Assembly: GCA_902782815.1 (NCBI GenBank) | Contig: CACZOS010000286.1 | Span: 1 to 17,319 of the forward strand | Length of the DNA: 17,319 nucleotides | Origin: an uncultured Lachnospiraceae bacterium | Lineage (GTDB): Bacteria > Bacillota > Clostridia > Lachnospirales > Lachnospiraceae | Direction: 5' to 3' | Part shown: positions 286 to 16,762 of the stretch, one piece after another | Layout: each line of letters opens with the position of its first letter | Position numbering within the stretch: position 1 is the stretch's first letter | The notes under the pieces: generated by a model | What the model was told of the DNA's origin: nothing | Database searches by the model: none | Seen by the model: the letters and a program-made list of their open reading frames with translations, nothing else | Position numbers and translations under genes: made by a program

Positions 286-459
286 TTAAAGAAAACCCCG
301 GAAATTTTTCTCCACCAGTTTCCGCGGCACCATAACGTCCCTGCCGCATCGCACACACCGGATTCGAAAATCCATCCCTACCCGCAGAAGTTTCCATTCA
401 TTTCCTCCGCAAGGATGAGGTTTTTTCATTTTGATCACCTGACCTACCTGAAAATCCAT
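286..459 (-). CDS. DUF951 family small protein
   Basis: A 57-residue ORF reads MDFQVGQVIKMKKPHPCGGN at its start, then EWKLLRVGMDFRIRCVRCGR and ends near VEKNFRGFL. This matches the DUF951 family, small basic proteins of Firmicutes with the recurring pattern KKxHPCG, WxxxRxGxDxRxxCxxC and xRxxFE/NK. Cys17 and the pair Cys35/Cys38 could bind a metal; this is inferred from spacing. The function is unknown. DUF951 is commonly found next to rpsF and chromosome-partition or mechanosensitive-channel genes in Firmicutes, and here it is directly upstream of rpsF. AGGAAAGGAG lies a few bases before the start. It follows the Ig-like gene by 91 nt with no clear terminator or promoter between, so it may be read from that operon. 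It is too short for most ORF length cut-offs. Confidence 0.92.
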   Translation of the reverse strand: MDFQVGQVIKMKKPHPCGGNEWKLLRVGMDFRIRCVRCGRDVMVPRKLVEKNFRGFL

Positions 460-550: not shown

Positions 551-3500
551 TCACCGGGTTTTCCTCACTATATCAGAAAATCTCCTCTCAGTCAAAAGGA
601 TCAGGATCAGCAGAAAAACCGAAGCGAGCAGAATCAAAGCCAGGGGCACTCTGTGCAGATAAACAGTCCGCACCAGTGAGGGCCGCATCACAAGAACTCT
701 TTTCTCCTTCCCGGTATTTCTGCTGCTGATCTTATTACCGGCAGAGTCCCAGGCTTCATAGCCGACGATCTGGTAGCCCGGCCGGGAGTCCAGGAATGCG
801 GTCAGGCTGTGGTCCTCATCAAAATCCTTTATGGTATAAAGTGCTGATCTTTCAGATTCTTCCCCTTTCTCGCTGCGCACGTAGACCTTCACTTTTTTCA
901 GCAACGCGTTGTCCATGGCCGTGATGGTATATTCCTTGCGGTCAAGGGCATAGTTTTCCTCCTCCAGACCACCGATCCTCACCGAAGGAGCCGTCTTATC
1001 GACGGCAAACATTATGGGGACGGTCCAGAGTTCATTACCGCTCCGGCTCAAAAATACCCCGGACCCTTCCGGATCCGGCTCCCGGCTTCGGAGGCTGATC
1101 CGGTAGTCCCCTTCCCGGGCGAACAACTCTTTTGAAATATGATAGAGGGTCCGGTACCACCCTTTATATTTAAAGGGAAGGATATCCTGATCCACCTCTT
1201 TCTCCGTTCCCTTAAGCCTCTTTTCCTCCGTCCTGATATCCTTTTCATCCACCTTAAAAACTTCTTCATTATTCCGGGTGACCAGGATCTCTGTTTCCAG
1301 AGGATGAAGGGAATAAGCCACCACCGTGATCTCCCCTTCCTGTTTCCGGTAATATCCGTGAAGATAGGAGGCCGTATCTTCTGTCAGACTGTATCTGGCT
1401 CCCCAACGGTCCACATAGAAGAGAAAATTCTTCTCCTCAGGGCTGTTTCCCGCCAGATCACAGACACTTGTTTTCAGGATATAGGCATTATCCAGTTCTT
1501 TCCTCCTGGGAAAATCCTTCCAGGAAAAGTACAGCTTTCCCCTTCCATTCTCCTCCCTCAGAAAGTAGCGTGACAGGTTTACTGCCTCTGTTCCGTCGCG
1601 GAAACAAAGGGACATCCGGCAGCGATTGCCATCCAGGTTGGTATCACTTACGGCCACGCCCGGTGTCACCTTCTCCGTATAGGTAATGCCCGGATCCCCC
1701 GCAAATCTGACCTCAGGGGGTGTACAGTCAATCACAAAGGGAGAGAGGGTTTCCCGTGGGGAGATGTTACCTGCCAGATCCCTGCAAATACAGCTGATCC
1801 GGTAATGTCCTTCTGCTTCTGCATGATATACATAGACCGACCATCCTTTTTTTCCTGCCTCCCTTACAGCTCCTTTGGGCAAAGATTCCGCCGGACTGAT
1901 TTTTTTCTCTTTACCTTTCCCCGTGAGCAGACTGATCCCTTTCCGGGGCACATTTTTATCCCGTACAAGGACGTATATATCCTGAGCCTGAGCATAATAC
2001 TTTTTGTTTTTGACCCCGGCCCGGTCCATCCACAGAATCAGAGATGGAGAAGTCCGGTCAATGACAAAATCCTCTTTCTGACAATAGGAAGCCGAATTAC
2101 CGGCGTAGTCTCTCACCGTAAGACCGATCCGGTAAGAACCGTCCCCGGTAAAATCCACTTTACACCAGTGTTTCTTCCCGCTGCCCTGCCATTTGCCCAG
2201 AGAATAGCCATCCTTCTCTCCGCTGATCTCCCATTTGGTGGAGGATGGGCGAAAATTCCAGTCCGTCACGGTGATCACTGCACTTCTGGCGGAGGCATAA
2301 TATGTCTTCCCTATGTTCCCGTCTCCGGATTCTTCTTCGGAATCGGAATGAATCTCCTCATCCGTAAATTTGAGGCTGATCACCGGGGCCGTCCGGTCTA
2401 CCACGATCCCGTAACTTGCCTCCTTCTCTTTCACCTGATAACCTGCATTGTCCGTAAACCCGTACCGGATCAGGACGGGGTTATCCCGGCGGGAAGAGGC
2501 ATATGTCCCTGGATCCAGGGTTATGGTCTGAACACTCTGGCAGGAAATGTCCTTCTCCAGATGAAGATCTTTTCCCTCTCCGGACTCTTCCTTTCCGAAA
2601 ACTGTCTTCAGGTAACTGTCCCGGATACCTGCATAGGGATTCCGACAAAGGAGGCTGATCCGGGGAGCTTCCTTATAATATTTAATCTTATGGACTGTAT
2701 CGGTATAGACCGCGTCAGAGTATTCCAGGGCTGCCTCCCCGGTCTGCGCAAACATGTCCCGGGACTCCCACAGAAAAACAGGGCTGATTGTTTCCGGGCT
2801 GGAATGTCCCAGATAGTCTGTACAGAAGGCAACAATCCATCCGCAAAAATCGTCTTTGTCCAGACTCAGGCTGATCTCCTGGTCTCCTCCGGCTACCGGG
2901 TTTGACCGGGTTTCCTCCACCACTGTTCCTCCACTGTCCATATAGCTGTAATGGATGGAGGCTATACCGCTGATCTGATCGGTCGCTTTAATACGAAAAG
3001 AAATCTTTTTTTGGGCAAACATCTGTACAGATGCATAGGAATAGAGACTCAAGGCTGTTTCATCCCCCGGACCTACGGTCAGTGACGGTGCTGAAGCATC
3101 CACCATGAAATCCTTTTTCCCCTCTGCCTTCCTCCCGCTTCCGTCATTTATCCGGAAACTCAAAGGATACTTTCCTTCTCCTTTCGGGGAAAACTCCATT
3201 TTGTTCATCCGATGACCCTCCTGGTAATAGCTGGTCCAGCCGGTCATATTGACAGCAAGATCCGTACCGGAAAGCATGAAAGCAGCGGGATGGAAATTCT
3301 CCTCGCGGATTATGATCTCATAGCCGGGACACTCCGCAAAACAGGGAATTCCCTCCACCGTATTCAGGGGATCTGCCTTGGTATTCACAGACATAATCTC
3401 CGGGCACTGCTTGTCCAGGGTGTATTGGGGACCGTAATAGACACCTTCCCGGAAACATCCCTCCTGGTCATGTCCATGGGGAATCAGAGTTTGGCCCCAT

Positions 3501-4216
3501 GGATCGGTATAGGCGATCTCTAAACGAAAATGTCCTTCCCGGCAGAAAGAAAGAGATAGACATACCATATCCCCGTCTTCCTGTCTCCATCTTTCTTTTT
3601 TCAGGAAACCGGAAGTCACATTCTTTCTCTCCTGTCCCTGATAATTCTCTTCGTAGACAGCCAGGTTAATCCTGTCCGGGTCAAAATCCCTGGTCTTCAT
3701 CCTTATGGTCACCTCCGTATCCTCCCGGATGAACAGTTCCGACTCCGGCCTGATCTCTTCCCCGGAGACGGACCGGATTCCGTACCCCATGTTTTCCGGG
3801 GAAGCAGTACGGCTTTTACGGGAATACTCATGATAAATAACAGAGAGTTCCGGCGGGGCAGGGGGAAGATTCTCCGCTGCCGTCTCAATCCCCGCCGAGT
3901 TTCCCGTCTCCTGAACCTTCTCCGTGGTGCTCCCTGTCTCCTGTCCTTTCTCCGTGGTACCCTCCGTTTCCTGCACTTTCTCCGTGGTACTCTCTGTCTC
4001 CTGTTCTTTCTCTGCGGTACTCTCCGTCTCCTGTTCTTTCTTTGCAGGGTTCTCTGCCGCCTTCTCCGCAGTCATGTCCTCTACGTCCTTCTCCTGTGTA
4101 AAATAATACTCTGTGGAAGGTTCATTTGATACTTCTTCCGCCATCAGACCGGTTTTCGCCGTCAGAAACAGAACCGGAAGAATCACCAGCCACATAAAGA
4201 AGATTCTCTTCCCCAT
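551..4216 (-). CDS. Large membrane-anchored surface protein with Ig-like repeats
   Basis: This is a 1221-residue protein with a signal peptide (basic start MGKRIFF, hydrophobic core, cleavage likely after GLMA). A Glu/Thr-rich linker of five near-identical 10-residue repeats follows at about residues 60-110. The long extracellular body contains Ig-like beta modules: D-x-T/S-x-P motifs recur (VDASAPSL, VDRTAPVI, IDRTSPSL, IDCTPPEV, VDKTAPSV near residues 370, 605, 720, 828 and 1070). Each module tends to end with YRIxL or DxAGN, as in RDYAGNS, RDLAGNI and CDLAGNS. A single C-terminal membrane segment (about 1190-1208) and a short basic tail anchor it, with no LPXTG motif. I start it at the ATG at 4216, 6 nt after GGAGG, rather than at the adjacent GTG. 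It overlaps the kinase gene by 95 nt, so the two are very likely cotranscribed. It is probably a surface adhesin or the sensor/substrate of the kinase; the exact function is not recognised. Confidence 0.8.
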   Translation of the reverse strand: MGKRIFFMWLVILPVLFLTAKTGLMAEEVSNEPSTEYYFTQEKDVEDMTAEKAAENPAKKEQETESTAEKEQETESTTEKVQETEGTTEKGQETGSTTEKVQETGNSAGIETAAENLPPAPPELSVIYHEYSRKSRTASPENMGYGIRSVSGEEIRPESELFIREDTEVTIRMKTRDFDPDRINLAVYEENYQGQERKNVTSGFLKKERWRQEDGDMVCLSLSFCREGHFRLEIAYTDPWGQTLIPHGHDQEGCFREGVYYGPQYTLDKQCPEIMSVNTKADPLNTVEGIPCFAECPGYEIIIREENFHPAAFMLSGTDLAVNMTGWTSYYQEGHRMNKMEFSPKGEGKYPLSFRINDGSGRKAEGKKDFMVDASAPSLTVGPGDETALSLYSYASVQMFAQKKISFRIKATDQISGIASIHYSYMDSGGTVVEETRSNPVAGGDQEISLSLDKDDFCGWIVAFCTDYLGHSSPETISPVFLWESRDMFAQTGEAALEYSDAVYTDTVHKIKYYKEAPRISLLCRNPYAGIRDSYLKTVFGKEESGEGKDLHLEKDISCQSVQTITLDPGTYASSRRDNPVLIRYGFTDNAGYQVKEKEASYGIVVDRTAPVISLKFTDEEIHSDSEEESGDGNIGKTYYASARSAVITVTDWNFRPSSTKWEISGEKDGYSLGKWQGSGKKHWCKVDFTGDGSYRIGLTVRDYAGNSASYCQKEDFVIDRTSPSLILWMDRAGVKNKKYYAQAQDIYVLVRDKNVPRKGISLLTGKGKEKKISPAESLPKGAVREAGKKGWSVYVYHAEAEGHYRISCICRDLAGNISPRETLSPFVIDCTPPEVRFAGDPGITYTEKVTPGVAVSDTNLDGNRCRMSLCFRDGTEAVNLSRYFLREENGRGKLYFSWKDFPRRKELDNAYILKTSVCDLAGNSPEEKNFLFYVDRWGARYSLTEDTASYLHGYYRKQEGEITVVAYSLHPLETEILVTRNNEEVFKVDEKDIRTEEKRLKGTEKEVDQDILPFKYKGWYRTLYHISKELFAREGDYRISLRSREPDPEGSGVFLSRSGNELWTVPIMFAVDKTAPSVRIGGLEEENYALDRKEYTITAMDNALLKKVKVYVRSEKGEESERSALYTIKDFDEDHSLTAFLDSRPGYQIVGYEAWDSAGNKISSRNTGKEKRVLVMRPSLVRTVYLHRVPLALILLASVFLLILILLTERRFSDIVRKTR
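3888..4037 (-). repeat. Five 30-bp tandem repeats coding a Glu/Thr-rich linker
   Basis: Five units of 30 bp lie head to tail. Plus-strand units begin at 3888, 3918, 3948, 3978 and 4008, and the inner ones share TTCTCCGTGGT and TCTCCTGT cores. They encode ten-residue repeats such as EKEQETESTT and EKVQETEGTT, which look like a flexible stalk between the signal peptide and the Ig-like region. The near identity suggests copy number can change by slippage or recombination without breaking the frame. Confidence 0.88.
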
Positions 4217-5855
4217 CACTCGCCTCCAAGATCTTTACCGCCTTCTCCGCTTCGGCAACCAGAGCCGTCAGCCTTTCTCTTCTTTCCAGGTTATGGCTCC
4301 CTGCCAGTCCTGAGGCAAAGGAGTCCACAGCCTTCAGTTCATCAAGCAGCATCTCTTCCGTGATCTCAGGTTCCTCCAGAAAATGACCTGCATAGTCCCG
4401 GATCTCCATGGCAACTTCAAAGGCTGCATACCAGGAGGAAGTCTCATCCTCCCGGATCGATCCCGGTTCCCGGTAATAGACACAAAGTCTTTTCAAAAGC
4501 CGGTAAAACTCCCCGTAGGATTTCCGGGCCCCGTCACTGCTCTCGTCCTGTCCATAGTCCAGAAAAGTCTGGTGGTATTCTCCGATCAGGACATAGCAGG
4601 CAGCCTTTTCTTTTTGTTCAGGGGAAAGGCCGTTCCCGGTACCGAGTGCCCGGGAAAACCAGGTTCCGGCTTCCCTCCTTCCCCCGATTCCTCCCATCTG
4701 ATGAAAGAAACCCATGCCCAGCTCATAACAGAACCTGCTGTAAGCTCCCGGGTTCTGAGTCCGGAGCACGGACAACGCTCCGTTTTCCCGAAGGAGGCTC
4801 ACGAGCTTCACCGCCTGTCCGGAGGAAAAGTGATTGGGAAGGATGTAAACATCGGTCATACTCTGATAGATTTCTTCCTTCCACGGTGCTTTTTTGAGGG
4901 CAGACCGGTAAAAGGAAAGTTTTTCATCCGGCTTTACAGACTCTTCGGCATACTCTACATAACGAAGTGCTTCAGTCTCCCTGGATTCCCGGACAAAACA
5001 TCTTCCCAATAGAAGAAGGCAGAAGAGTGCCCCCAGTCCCCATACCAGATATTCCGCCTTGATTCTTCCGATCGCCGCTTTCTTTCTCTCCTGCCTGCCC
5101 CGGATCAGTCCCAGGGCAGCTTCCAGATCCCCCATATCCCGGTAGCGGTCCCCCGGACAAGGAGCGGTGCATCTCCCAAGAAAAGAGAGAAAGAAGGAAG
5201 ATACCCGCAGATGAGCATCCTCCGGTATCCCGGGTTTTCCGAAGAGGCAGAAGGTTAAGGTCCGTCCCAATCCGTAGATATCTGTTCTGATATCTGGCAA
5301 TATTTCCCCTGTGTACTGTTCCGGGGCCGCATAGGCAGGGGTTCCCAGGTAAGTCTCCCCCATAGCGTGGACATCTCCTCCCAGGGCTGCGCCAAAATCA
5401 ATGAGATACAACTTTCCCGAAGGATGAAGGATGATATTTGCCGGTTTCAGATCCAGGTGCAGAAGAGGTGGATTCCTTCCGTGAAGATCCTTCAGTATGG
5501 AGGCCAGCTGTAATCCCCATCCTGTGACCTGGTCTTCGCTTGCCGGGCCGGATTCCCTTACATATTCTTCCAGAGTCTTCCCGGGAATCCACTCCATGAT
5601 GATCATCAGGGAGTCCTCCTCCGTAAAGACATCGATGATCCGGGGGACAGCCTGATGCCGTATCTTTCTGATATTATGGATTTCCCTGATGAACTGTCCC
5701 AGGATAATCTCCCTGCCGGGGCCTTCCCCCGGCCGGATCATCTTCAGGACTCTTTTCAATACCAGGTGTTCATCAAAAACCAGAAAGACTGTACCGGTCC
5801 CCCCTTCTCCGATCTTGTCCAAAACCCTGTAGCGCCCTCCCAGGATTTTCGTCAT
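4122..5855 (-). CDS. Transmembrane Hanks-type Ser/Thr protein kinase
   Basis: The protein has 577 residues. The N-terminal kinase domain (about 8-250) is complete: glycine loop GEGGTGTV (16-23), lysine K38, alphaC glutamate E58, catalytic HLDLKPAN (133-140, Asp135, Asn140), IDFG (Asp153) and AAPE (176-179). The usual HRD arginine is leucine, so activation-loop control may differ from RD kinases. A membrane segment (about 269-288) follows, then roughly 290 extracytoplasmic residues that look helical and TPR-like rather than PASTA, so it is not a PrkC/StkP-type muropeptide sensor. It starts 7 nt after the ubiquitin-like gene with no clear ribosome site, which suggests translational coupling. 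Its last ~32 codons overlap the Ig-like gene and give a Gly/Ser/Asp-rich tail. It likely phosphorylates a partner in this locus; the substrate is unknown. Confidence 0.93.
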   Translation of the reverse strand: MTKILGGRYRVLDKIGEGGTGTVFLVFDEHLVLKRVLKMIRPGEGPGREIILGQFIREIHNIRKIRHQAVPRIIDVFTEEDSLMIIMEWIPGKTLEEYVRESGPASEDQVTGWGLQLASILKDLHGRNPPLLHLDLKPANIILHPSGKLYLIDFGAALGGDVHAMGETYLGTPAYAAPEQYTGEILPDIRTDIYGLGRTLTFCLFGKPGIPEDAHLRVSSFFLSFLGRCTAPCPGDRYRDMGDLEAALGLIRGRQERKKAAIGRIKAEYLVWGLGALFCLLLLGRCFVRESRETEALRYVEYAEESVKPDEKLSFYRSALKKAPWKEEIYQSMTDVYILPNHFSSGQAVKLVSLLRENGALSVLRTQNPGAYSRFCYELGMGFFHQMGGIGGRREAGTWFSRALGTGNGLSPEQKEKAACYVLIGEYHQTFLDYGQDESSDGARKSYGEFYRLLKRLCVYYREPGSIREDETSSWYAAFEVAMEIRDYAGHFLEEPEITEEMLLDELKAVDSFASGLAGSHNLERRERLTALVAEAEKAVKILEASDGEENLLYVAGDSSGSVSDGENRSDGGRSIK

Positions 5856-5862
5856 TCTGTGT

Positions 5863-6093
5863 TCAGATCATGATCAGGCTGCTTCCATCCGACAGTCCGC
5901 ATTCGCCCAATGTAAGGTTATGGCGAAGGATGTGTCTCTTTCCCACATCACAGAGCCAGGGTCTCTGCAGATGAGGGCAGGCAGCCAGCCTTTGTTTCAG
6001 CCGGTCCATAAGGGTTTCCGTCAGGTCGTCCTCGCTACAGGAAATCTTCAGGACATCACCCTGGTAAGGCAGCATAATATCGACCGTAATCAT
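5863..6093 (-). CDS. YukD/EsaB-like ubiquitin-fold protein
   Basis: A 76-residue protein starts MITVDIMLPYQGDVLKIS and ends TLGECGLSDGSSLIMI. The beta-start, central helix and end of the form LxxxGLxDGSxLxxI resemble YukD/EsaB, the small ubiquitin-like proteins of WXG100 (type VII) secretion loci; YukD ends with a similar GECKLSDCGITNGDRLEIL. It lacks a C-terminal diglycine, so it is not expected to be conjugated. I start it at the second ATG: AAGGAGG (6101-6107) is 7 nt before it, while the first ATG at 6099 is 1 nt from that site. It sits 7 nt upstream of the kinase gene. It may act as a cytoplasmic adaptor for the kinase. The family assignment rests on pattern recall, not on a search. Confidence 0.72.
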   Translation of the reverse strand: MITVDIMLPYQGDVLKISCSEDDLTETLMDRLKQRLAACPHLQRPWLCDVGKRHILRHNLTLGECGLSDGSSLIMI

Positions 6094-6219: not shown

Positions 6220-6259
6220 GAACCCCCCGCACAGTTTTATCTTTTGTGCAGGGGGATTC
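6220..6259 (-). terminator. Strong hairpin after the LytTR gene, likely terminator
   Basis: The minus strand folds into a stem of 11 bp (CCCCC, one T-G wobble, GCACA) that can extend to about 15 bp, with an 11-nt loop. It is followed by TTCTTT, a short U-rich tract. It most likely ends LytTR transcription. The U-tract is weak, so it could instead be an attenuating or processing structure. The rest of 6094-6396 holds no convincing gene. Confidence 0.6.
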
Positions 6260-6396: not shown

Positions 6397-7113
6397 TCAG
6401 GCCTGTCCGCAGGAGCCGAAAAATACCTGTTCCGTCCGTCTACGATACTTTCTGGAAACAGGAATGACAATTTCTCCCTCAAGAATGATCTGAAGATGGG
6501 CAAAATCCACCCGGGTCACATAAGTCAGGTTTACGATAAAACTCCGGTGACAACGGACAAATTCCTCGGGAAGCCTTGCTTCCATACTGGAAAAAGAGTC
6601 ATAGAATTCATGCTCATCCCCGGATCTGTACAGGATAACTCTCTTGTTCCTGGTCTCGAAATAGAGGATGGAAGAATAAGCAAATACCATCCTGACCGTC
6701 TTCTTCCTAACCAAAAAGCGATGGCTGAAATGATCCCTCTCCTCCCTGGAGACCATATGGCGGTAGATCCGCATGAGCATATCCGGAAGACAGGATTCTT
6801 CCAGAGGAGATACCCACAGAAACAAAGGTCTGATCTCAGGAATTACCAGTTGAGCTGCAGAAATATCTCCTGAAGTCAGCAGAACCATCTCTACCCGGTC
6901 ATTCCGTCTTCGGATACTCCTGACCAGCCGGATATCCGGAGGACCGGAAACCCCCAGGACAAGCAAATCCACGTCCTGCGTGTCCTTTCTCTCCGGCCGG
7001 TTAATACTCCATTGAAACAAAGTCCTCCCCAAAAGGGTCTCCATCCGGTCCATCTGTCTTGTTATCTTACATGTCTCCTCCGGATACCTGTTATCCAACC
7101 TGATCTTTATCAT
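6397..7113 (-). CDS. LytTR-family transcriptional regulator with degenerate receiver
   Basis: This protein has 238 residues. The C-terminal ~100 residues form a LytTR DNA-binding domain: FLVRKKTVRMVF, SILYFETRNKRVILY, FYDSFSSMEARL, FVRCHRSFIVNLTYV and IPVSRKYR are the usual landmarks. The N-terminal part has a receiver-like layout (VDLLVLGVSG, then VEMVLLTSG), but the phosphoacceptor Asp is replaced by Gly and no acidic pocket is evident. Control is therefore probably not by a histidine kinase. The start at 7113 is chosen because AAGGGGAAGG precedes it, and the alternative ATG at 7143 falls inside the -10 region. It lies upstream of the YukD-like/kinase/Ig block on the same strand, separated by 303 nt holding a hairpin. 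It may control that block; this is inferred from position. Confidence 0.85.
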   Translation of the reverse strand: MIKIRLDNRYPEETCKITRQMDRMETLLGRTLFQWSINRPERKDTQDVDLLVLGVSGPPDIRLVRSIRRRNDRVEMVLLTSGDISAAQLVIPEIRPLFLWVSPLEESCLPDMLMRIYRHMVSREERDHFSHRFLVRKKTVRMVFAYSSILYFETRNKRVILYRSGDEHEFYDSFSSMEARLPEEFVRCHRSFIVNLTYVTRVDFAHLQIILEGEIVIPVSRKYRRRTEQVFFGSCGQA

Positions 7114-7141
7114 ATTACCTTCCCCTTGGATTGATGAACTC

Positions 7142-7172
7142 ATTATAACATACTTTTCATGATAATTGTAAA
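7142..7172 (-). promoter_or_regulatory. Extended -10 promoter of the LytTR gene
   Basis: The minus strand carries TGTTATAAT, an extended -10 (TG-N-TATAAT; hexamer 7142-7147). A TTTACA lies 19 bp upstream (7167-7172), a long spacing that an extended -10 can offset. Transcription would start near 7135, which rules out the ORF start at 7143. Confidence 0.65.
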
Positions 7173-15412: not shown

Positions 15413-16762
15413 ATGAAAAACGATGAAAAGATAGATATTATTCTTAACGATGACAAAACCGAAGAAGAGCTGAATCGGGAAGAAGTAATCAATCAGAATT
15501 ACCAGACAGCCCAGCGGTATATCAATATTGCCGAGTATATGCGGCAGTATGAGGAGCAGGATAAGTATTATCATCGTGCTATCCAGACCCTGGAAAAATG
15601 TAATGAAGATCATCGGTTTGATAAAGAGATCGAGGAACTGAACTACAAAAAATTTGCTGTCCGCACAAACGGTAAGATCACTCTTTATAAAGAGGCCTGT
15701 AAGATCCGTGATAAGGCCAAATCACCCCAGGATTATTATTCTGCCCAGGCAGTTTTCCGCCGTATCGCAAAATATGAGCCTAATCATACCATCCAGGAAA
15801 AATGGGTCAGTCCGGAGTTATATCAGGAAGCATTGAAGTGTTCGGATTCGGCAAAACAGGCAGATCTCTGTGAGAAGATGGCTGTTGCCCGGGAAAAAGC
15901 GGACAAAAGACAAAGTTTATACGCCAGCGTTGCATTGATCGTGGTTATACTGGCTCTGGTTGTTTTTTCCAGGACTACCATGGCCCGCCGGGTTCTTGCT
16001 TACGCCTATGAGACAGTGGGAATCCATACCGGAGCCTGGCAGAAGTATAATGCTGTATACAGACGTACAGGCGAGAAAGAGGCATATCTTAAGTATCTGG
16101 AAAACCGTTACAAAGCCGCAAAACATGCTCTGGACGAAGGTGATCTGGATATGGCTTACGATGATTTCGCGGCGGTATCCCGCCCTGAAAAGGGTTTCGG
16201 TTATGATCGGGGTTACGAAGACAGTTGTCTTCAGTTCTCCCGGCTGGAGCAGCAGAGAATCAAAGAAAGTCCCGCAGAAGAGGTCGTTCATTTTGCCGGG
16301 ATGGACTGGCGTATCCTGGAAAGGCAGGATGACCGCGTATTACTGATAAAAGACGAATCACTGGGATCCATTCCTTTTGATGAGGCAGGTAAACATTCCT
16401 CCTGGGCAGATTCCTCAGTCAGGAAATGGCTCAACAACACTTTTCTCACCGAAAATTTTTCTCAGGAAGAAACCGATCTGATTCTGGACACCGAAGTGGT
16501 CACGGAAAAGAATACTTATTTCCCGGGAGTTGATCCGGGAGAGACCACCACAGACAAGCTTTTCCTCATGAGTATCGGAGAGGAGCAGCAGTATTATGAT
16601 CTGCTCCATGAAACAGAAACCTGCTGGTGGCTGAGGACTCCGGGAGCCCATGAAGGAAGCATGGCTTTTGTCTATCGGGACAAAGAAGTCATGCCCTACG
16701 GCTATGAAGTCAGCAACACGGAGATCACTGTAAAACCGCTGATCTGGCTTTCTCTCAACTGA
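15413..16762 (+). CDS. Single-pass membrane protein, helical N-terminus and DUF6273
   Basis: The protein has 449 residues. The N-terminal part (about 1-165) is charged and helical with TPR-like pairs (YQTAQRYINIAEYMRQYEEQ, YYSAQAVFRRIAKYEPN) and is probably cytoplasmic. One membrane segment lies at about 169-186. A second helical TPR-like stretch follows, then DUF6273 (about 290-449): VHFAGMDWRILE, VLLIKDE, SSVRKWLNNTFL, DKLFLMSIGEEQQYY, ETCWWLRTPG and the end TVKPLIWLSLN. DUF6273 is a C-type-lectin-like or formylglycine-related small domain of unknown function found in many gut Firmicutes; this fold link is tentative. AAAAGGAG is 8 nt before the start. It has its own promoter and a strong terminator. 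Similar architecture is often seen near surface kinases, but no partner is certain. Confidence 0.84.
   Translation: MKNDEKIDIILNDDKTEEELNREEVINQNYQTAQRYINIAEYMRQYEEQDKYYHRAIQTLEKCNEDHRFDKEIEELNYKKFAVRTNGKITLYKEACKIRDKAKSPQDYYSAQAVFRRIAKYEPNHTIQEKWVSPELYQEALKCSDSAKQADLCEKMAVAREKADKRQSLYASVALIVVILALVVFSRTTMARRVLAYAYETVGIHTGAWQKYNAVYRRTGEKEAYLKYLENRYKAAKHALDEGDLDMAYDDFAAVSRPEKGFGYDRGYEDSCLQFSRLEQQRIKESPAEEVVHFAGMDWRILERQDDRVLLIKDESLGSIPFDEAGKHSSWADSSVRKWLNNTFLTENFSQEETDLILDTEVVTEKNTYFPGVDPGETTTDKLFLMSIGEEQQYYDLLHETETCWWLRTPGAHEGSMAFVYRDKEVMPYGYEVSNTEITVKPLIWLSLN

Follow-up and report, generated by a model that had tools for sequence, protein, structure and literature searches.

The stretch of DNA analysed here (the window) comprises 17,319 nucleotides from an uncultured Lachnospiraceae bacterium, and its positions 551 to 6,093 hold three genes encoding a ubiquitin-fold YukD-like protein (component B), a membrane Ser/Thr kinase (component D), and a large surface protein with Ig-like repeats (component I). 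This trio makes up the signalling and cell-wall portion of a type VII secretion system (T7SS) locus in which the motor and secreted-protein genes are missing, and both its identity and the loss of the EssC ATPase and WXG100 genes are held with high confidence. It is also likely that the kinase and the Ig-repeat protein function without the secretion motor. The genes of the locus and its landmarks in the window are the following:

5863..6093, minus strand: gene of the YukD-like component B, 76 aa, ubiquitin fold, C-terminus LIMI
4122..5855, minus strand: membrane Ser/Thr kinase, component D, 577 aa, with a kinase domain, one transmembrane segment (TM) at about residue 270, and a C-terminal ectodomain
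4122..5009, minus strand: predicted all-helical, TPR-like ectodomain of the kinase
551..4216, minus strand: large Ig-repeat surface protein, component I, 1,221 aa, with a signal segment, Ig-like domains, a C-terminal TM, and a short tail
6397..7143, minus strand: LytTR-domain regulator (by Pfam), a relative of which adjoins WXG100 genes in EssC-positive relatives
286..459, minus strand: DUF951-type small gene, followed by rpsF, the downstream landmark of the locus, matched in relatives

A total of 116 related genomes were searched with the kinase and the Ig protein, and 38 stretches were fetched, so that 39 were examined including the window. G005, which belongs to the same genus and whose genome is one contig, carries two WXG100-type genes, LytTR, an acetyl-CoA hydrolase family gene, an NA37 gene, EssC, B, D, I, DUF951, and rpsF. 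The NA37 gene lies on the other strand, and neither it nor the acetyl-CoA hydrolase gene, both placed after LytTR, is related to the system. The EssC of this contig is matched by FtsK_SpoIIIE at E 2e-44, and the WXG100-type genes score 25 bits (cut-off 27.3) and 46.8 bits, one of them being over the cut-off. The window shows the order LytTR, B, D, I, DUF951, and rpsF, and EssC and WXG100 are absent. Since this is the G005 order minus WXG100 and EssC, the trio is what remained after their removal, as the first-pass annotation had suspected when it offered an orphan piece of a T7SS as one of its readings. The genes flanking the trio are contiguous with it on both sides, without EssC or WXG100 between, and neither of these turns up in the rest of the assembly, which refutes the idea that these genes lie just outside a rearranged locus. 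The arrangement of the trio recurs in relatives, and its genes are therefore not chance neighbours of one strain only. Moreover, in L091 (G074, of the same order) C, B, two WXG100 genes, J, F, D, and I stand together, which makes a loss of C within the genus the simpler reading.

The presence and absence of these genes were compared across 24 genomes of the genus. The EssC profile (A1) matches 13 of them, partly on incomplete contigs, to which a contig-edge fragment in G023 is added; WXG100 (PF06013, over cut-off) is present in the same 14 genomes and absent from the same 10 (Fisher p 5e-7). The ten genomes without either are G000 (the genome of the window), G002, G003, G007, G008, G010, G013, G016, G019, and G022, and four of them (G003, G007, G008, and G022) are 92-98% complete. 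EssC matches in the genus score 308-2341 bits, and contig-edge or partial pieces score 41-75; among the positive calls, G023 is a 65-bit fragment and G012 a partial gene. In G000, whose assembly is 84.6% complete and consists of 458 contigs, no EssC was detected, the sole FtsK match over cut-off being SpoIIIE-like (90 bits, in an 839-aa frame), and no WXG100 match passed the cut-off, with two matches at E about 0.3 inside longer frames. The lack of both genes noticed at first in the window alone thus extends to its whole assembly. The Ig gene is present in 8 of 10 genomes without EssC and in 13 of 14 with it (p 0.55). For B, the corresponding numbers are 2 of 10 (G000 and G003) and 12 of 14 (p 0.003).

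D and I are adjacent in G002, G007, G010, G016, and G022, with no B anywhere in those genomes; G011, G013, and G023, whose Ig or kinase genes are cut by contig ends, are outside this count. In G003 (L068, C23, 7987-12610), B is followed by a D of 292 aa that has no kinase domain, and then by I. The reverse case is G004 (L194, C17, 7193-13284), where WXG100, EssC, B, DUF951, and rpsF are found, D and I are missing from the locus, and the whole genome gives no Ig match. G011 is arranged like G004 at this place, with an Ig gene on another contig. Because D and I occur without the core in some relatives and the core occurs without D and I in G004, the motor core (WXG100, EssC, and B) and the D/I pair are separable both ways at one chromosomal place. 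Regarding the 39 stretches, kinase and Ig matches are found together in 30, which is not an unbiased frequency since the stretches were chosen for kinase or Ig matches and some end near the kinase (G051). Of these 30, 8 have EssC within the stretch and 7 elsewhere in the genome, and in 15 it is undetected, with at most four candidates scored per genome; the 30 include G043, with a weak Ig match (60 bits), and G003, with its kinase-less D. G079, one of the 15 without EssC, does have WXG100. A different state of EssC was observed in L074 (G018 C52, 10456-14976), where a stop splits it into two open frames and the rest of the locus is complete.

Kinase D is recognized by Pfam Pkinase at E 7e-34. 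The active-site residues K38, E58, D135, K137, N140, and D153 are invariant in 16 aligned full-length kinases, including ones without a local EssC. Hydropathy shows the single TM at about residue 270. In the comparison of the kinase profile with solved structures, the best scores correspond to the PASTA kinases PknB/Stk1/StkP, from which the window kinase differs in its TPR-like ectodomain and in having no PASTA domain (none by Pfam, and NF033483 at 123 bits where its cut-off is 450). G000 has a further kinase, encoded on C25 in a frame of 717 aa, which is presumably PknB-like. The model of the ectodomain is all-helical (pLDDT 86), and homologues found through the ectodomain number six proteins including the query, the other five being 48-53% identical. 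An EssB/YukC fold was considered for this region; the structure matches were generic TPR superhelices only and EssB/YukC was not in the listed rows, a result that counts neither way. PF10140 (YukC) has no match in the window or in G000 and none over cut-off in the 24 genus genomes, with two weak matches in G021 and G017. As no YukC passes the cut-off in any of these genomes, kinase D occupies the position of EssB.

The Ig protein is matched by Big_13 (1.5e-11) and Big_3_2 (1.1e-7) of Pfam. Its hydropathy profile shows an N-terminal hydrophobic signal segment and, at about residue 1191, a single C-terminal TM, followed by a tail of about a dozen residues, which agrees with the single-pass protein with a short cytoplasmic tail described at first. 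No LPXTG was found in it. Co-evolution of the kinase ectodomain with the Ig protein was tried as a line of evidence and abandoned, because the correlation (r 0.94, 15 genomes) is nearly equalled by that of the unrelated neighbour LytTR with the Ig protein (r 0.93, 11 genomes); the ectodomain value is 0.87 once the kinase domain is removed and 0.71 given LytTR.

Concerning B, its score against Pfam YukD (PF08817) is 19 bits (E 0.0024), below the cut-off of 27 bits, and PF00240 (ubiquitin) matches at E 0.0032. A profile of B and nine relatives has as its top PDB matches an EccD-type ubiquitin domain and B. subtilis YukD (E 0.0043); the predicted structure is a ubiquitin fold (pLDDT 91), and Foldseek matches the model to the YukD of 9qks at E 3.9e-5. 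The YukD-like assignment therefore holds despite the low Pfam score, because the family profile and the predicted fold agree. The protein ends in LIMI and has no C-terminal Gly-Gly; most of its aligned relatives share the start MI.VD, and in relatives the family sits between EssC and the kinase. A second YukD-like gene of G000, in L001 (C116, 864-3114), is over the PF08817 cut-off with 33 bits. It is flanked by a 171-aa protein without Pfam match, which we take to be E2-like, and by a ThiF-family protein, and this set looks like a bacterial ubiquitin-like conjugation cassette, separate from the trio of the window.

Three published subtypes have a related gene content. In the parts of the survey of Garrett, Higginson and Palmer (2024, PMC11217815) drawn on here, T7SSd, T7SSe, and T7SSj carry a WXG100 protein A, a ubiquitin-like B (not in T7SSd), an ATPase C, a membrane kinase D, and an Ig-like I, the last being a large protein with a signal peptide, a C-terminal TM, and Ig-like domains. 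The window shares with them the ubiquitin-like B (except for T7SSd), a kinase D with a helical C-terminal region (TPR in TsjD), and the large Ig-domain I. In contrast, it lacks the TsxC ATPase and the WXG100 TsxA, and its locus also carries none of H, K, the phosphatase F, and the FHA protein J, the last two being components of T7SSe and T7SSj. By domain make-up and the synteny of relatives, the trio is assigned as the predicted B, D, and I of a T7SSd/e/j-type locus. In the same parts of that source, the kinase TscD of T7SSc has an EssB-like topology and a conserved active site. The survey began from EssC neighbourhoods and, for this reason, ATPase-less loci could not enter it; its abstract assigns an ATPase to every new subtype, and the words orphan, incomplete, and remnant are absent from its main text. 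No paper on EssC-less D/I modules was found in the literature search, preprints and most subscription papers being outside its coverage.

A second comparison is with EssB/YukC and YueB/EsaA of T7SSb, which, according to the available portions of PMC9600267 and PMC12599244, also present a kinase fold inside, one TM, a helical ectodomain, and an adjacent partner with a large extracellular part. However, the active-site residues of the window kinase are intact except for HLD in place of HRD, and it has no PF10140 match. YueB is polytopic, whereas the partner in the window is a single-pass Ig-repeat protein.

Furthermore, selection on D and I was analyzed in pairs of relatives of the species of the window. 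For G016/G012, a pair that lacks both EssC and B at this locus, the kinase has a dN/dS of 0.156 and the Ig gene one of 0.160 (dS about 0.7), and the comparison genes give 0.175 (LytTR) and 0.069 (trigger-factor gene). In G002/G010, where neither genome has EssC, the values are 0.19 and 0.23 (dS about 1.5); a number of further pairs are saturated or nearly so. D and I are thus kept intact by purifying selection in relatives without a local EssC. The Ig tree places the genomes without EssC at the place in two groups: G000, G016, G012, and G003, with support 100/100, and G002, G010, G007, G009, G022, and G020, with 90/93 in the first tree and 84/86 in the second. The EssC-positive G001 is sister to the G002-G010 group with 93/96 in the first Ig tree and only 68/56 in the second. 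At least two changes of EssC state are needed on this tree, and a single clade of the rows without local EssC is rejected (p-AU 0.009) by a test that was set after a tree had been seen. The Ig gene of L082 (two frames) was left out of the Ig tree, L089 out of the second Ig tree, and the kinase relative of L068 (no kinase domain) out of alignment A2 and the kinase tree.

The reading favoured here, with moderate confidence, is that D and I are a separable, selected envelope module in which a wall-spanning sensor I is coupled to kinase D, and that B is a leftover. This is proposed because the Ig gene persists without EssC, B follows EssC, G004 shows the reverse arrangement, and dN/dS is 0.16–0.23. 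The self-contained envelope module suggested by the first-pass annotation is therefore supported in the case of the kinase and the Ig protein, which persist under purifying selection without EssC and WXG100, and not for the three genes as a unit.

How such a pair could work is proposed tentatively. D and I would be an ATPase-independent, envelope-spanning receptor-kinase: the Ig protein would span the wall as a sensor or adhesin, and its C-terminal TM could pack against the TM of D by analogy with B. subtilis, where the portions of PMC9600267 consulted suggest that YukC touches YueB mainly through their TM regions. The TPR-like ectodomain of D would then read the state of I and set the activity of the kinase domain, which would phosphorylate cytosolic targets. 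One reader of this phosphorylation could be the FHA domain that EssC carries in some EssC-positive relatives; FHA is found by Pfam in the EssC of L069 and L194, and an SRxH-type FHA motif in three of six EssC rows, one of the other three being without its N terminus. In the window, a reader other than EssC would have to serve, and B would be a survivor of the lost motor on its way out. A broader idea, equally tentative, is that the kinase-Ig pair might be an autonomous cross-wall receptor-kinase to which an EssC-WXG100-YukD core was joined in T7SSd/e/j; its basis is that half of the kinase-Ig stretches (15/30) come from genomes without detectable EssC.

Several results weigh against the module of sensor and kinase. 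The window kinase has HLD for HRD, and the Arg is also absent in L071 and L079 (3/16). In G003, D is a 292-aa protein with only the TM and ectodomain (the reported stop is, by position, the gene's own end), and its retention with B and I favours a structural role. The EssC of G005 shows no FHA match by Pfam. The co-divergence of ectodomain and Ig protein (r 0.94) shows little beside its LytTR control (r 0.93). G008 and G019, both EssC-less, have neither an Ig match nor a full-length D match, and G012 has another T7SS-type contig and could use D and I in trans. Finally, the kinase branch leading to the clade of the window is long, as relaxed constraint would also give, and the tree backbones are moderate to weak, that of the kinase tree being weak.

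Given the kinase-less D of G003, a serious rival is that D and I are a wall-spanning tether or adhesin, with the TM-TPR half of D anchoring I and kinase activity dispensable, in a role like that of EssB. The order of B, TM-ectodomain, and I in G003 fits this explanation, and so does the fact that EssB/YukC, in the parts of PMC12599244 and PMC9600267 used here, is a non-catalytic scaffold with the same topology as D. However, G003 is a single genome, and a pure scaffold would have no need of the active-site residues that are invariant across the 16 full-length kinases; this role is considered unlikely overall.

It is more doubtful still that the T7SS was lost recently and that B, D, and I are functionless leftovers in decay. 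The nearest relatives G016 and G012 have already lost B, the long branch and the altered HRD motif of the window could be signs of decay, and in G008 and G019 neither D nor I was found. Nevertheless, dN/dS is 0.16-0.23 in the two pairs without local EssC, two deeply diverged groups in that condition keep both genes, and the 1.7-kb kinase frame and the 3.7-kb Ig frame are uninterrupted in the window.

A module of three proteins acting together, with B as the kinase adaptor that the first-pass annotation had proposed, appears quite improbable. In its favour, B precedes D (or the kinase-less D) and I in G000 and G003, which belong to one Ig-tree clade with G016 and G012; pN between these two B genes (0.39) is well under pS (0.87, saturated); and a weak but reproducible YukD-YukC contact is described in B. 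subtilis in the parts of PMC9600267 consulted. But an adaptor role is not supported as a rule, since B is found in only 2 of the 10 EssC-less genomes, is absent from the five genomes listed above in which D and I persist as a pair, and stays beside EssC without D and I in G004. Least probable of all is that G000 does have a T7SS and that the part of the genome missing from its incomplete, 458-contig assembly contains EssC and WXG100, as 7 of the 30 kinase-Ig stretches with EssC on another contig would allow, because 10 genomes lack the two genes jointly, among them four that are 92-98% complete, and the genes at the ancestral place are contiguous without them.

Turning to the organization of the locus in the window, the three genes share the minus strand with a gap of 7 nt between B and D and an overlap of 95 nt between D and I, counted from the Ig-gene ATG at 4216, so the spacing reported at first holds. 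The B gene has an ATG at 6093 with a well-spaced AAGGAGG upstream, and the Ig gene starts at 4216/4219 with GGAGG upstream. Two further features were observed:

6223..6255, minus strand: strong hairpin with a T-rich tail, terminator-like, in the interval between the LytTR gene and the trio (z -5.0)
3904..4041, minus strand: tandem repeat of 30/60 nt, which encodes a spacer rich in Glu and Thr close to the N terminus of the Ig protein

This hairpin (6255-6223), T-rich tail included, sets the three genes apart from the LytTR gene and suggests a separate transcript for them. It is missing from the list of the pattern scan, which takes loops of at most 8 only, and for the minus strand from the hairpin to B that scan listed no promoter-like site. 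The flanking genes are LytTR (named by Pfam), trigger factor, and metG on one side of the trio, and DUF951 and rpsF on the other. Elsewhere in the window (15413-16762, plus strand) there is a gene for a 449-aa protein that has a single TM and carries a DUF6273 domain at its C-terminal end; a weak relative (23%) is also present in the T7SS-type locus of G009 C37 (L193).

With respect to other kinases and FHA proteins, G000 encodes another membrane kinase of 956 aa in L186 (C332, 657-5822), near a DUF6382-FHA protein. References for F (PPM phosphatase) and J (DUF6382-FHA) have no match in the window, and the DUF6382 matches of G000 are on other contigs. The DUF6382-FHA protein was considered as the phospho-reader of kinase D and rejected; it is present in 22 of the 24 genus genomes but away from the trio locus, and at one place checked by Pfam (L188) its neighbours include a T2SSE-type ATPase. 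In the family-level relatives L086 and L095, the kinase lies beside a PP2C phosphatase, a DUF6382-FHA protein, a WG-repeat protein, and a prepilin-peptidase-like gene (neighbours named by Pfam in L086 and partly by BLAST to L086 in L095), and a link of the D kinase group with pilus-type loci is possible.

These results show that a recently described secretion system is split into a motor core (WXG100, EssC, and B) and an envelope part (D and I), each of which is found alone. Loci like this one offer a natural test of the roles of the T7SS-linked kinase and Ig protein, which in the literature, as far as the consulted parts go, are left at prediction. They also call for caution in genome annotation, since a working T7SS should not be concluded from a YukD-like gene, a kinase, or an Ig protein by itself.

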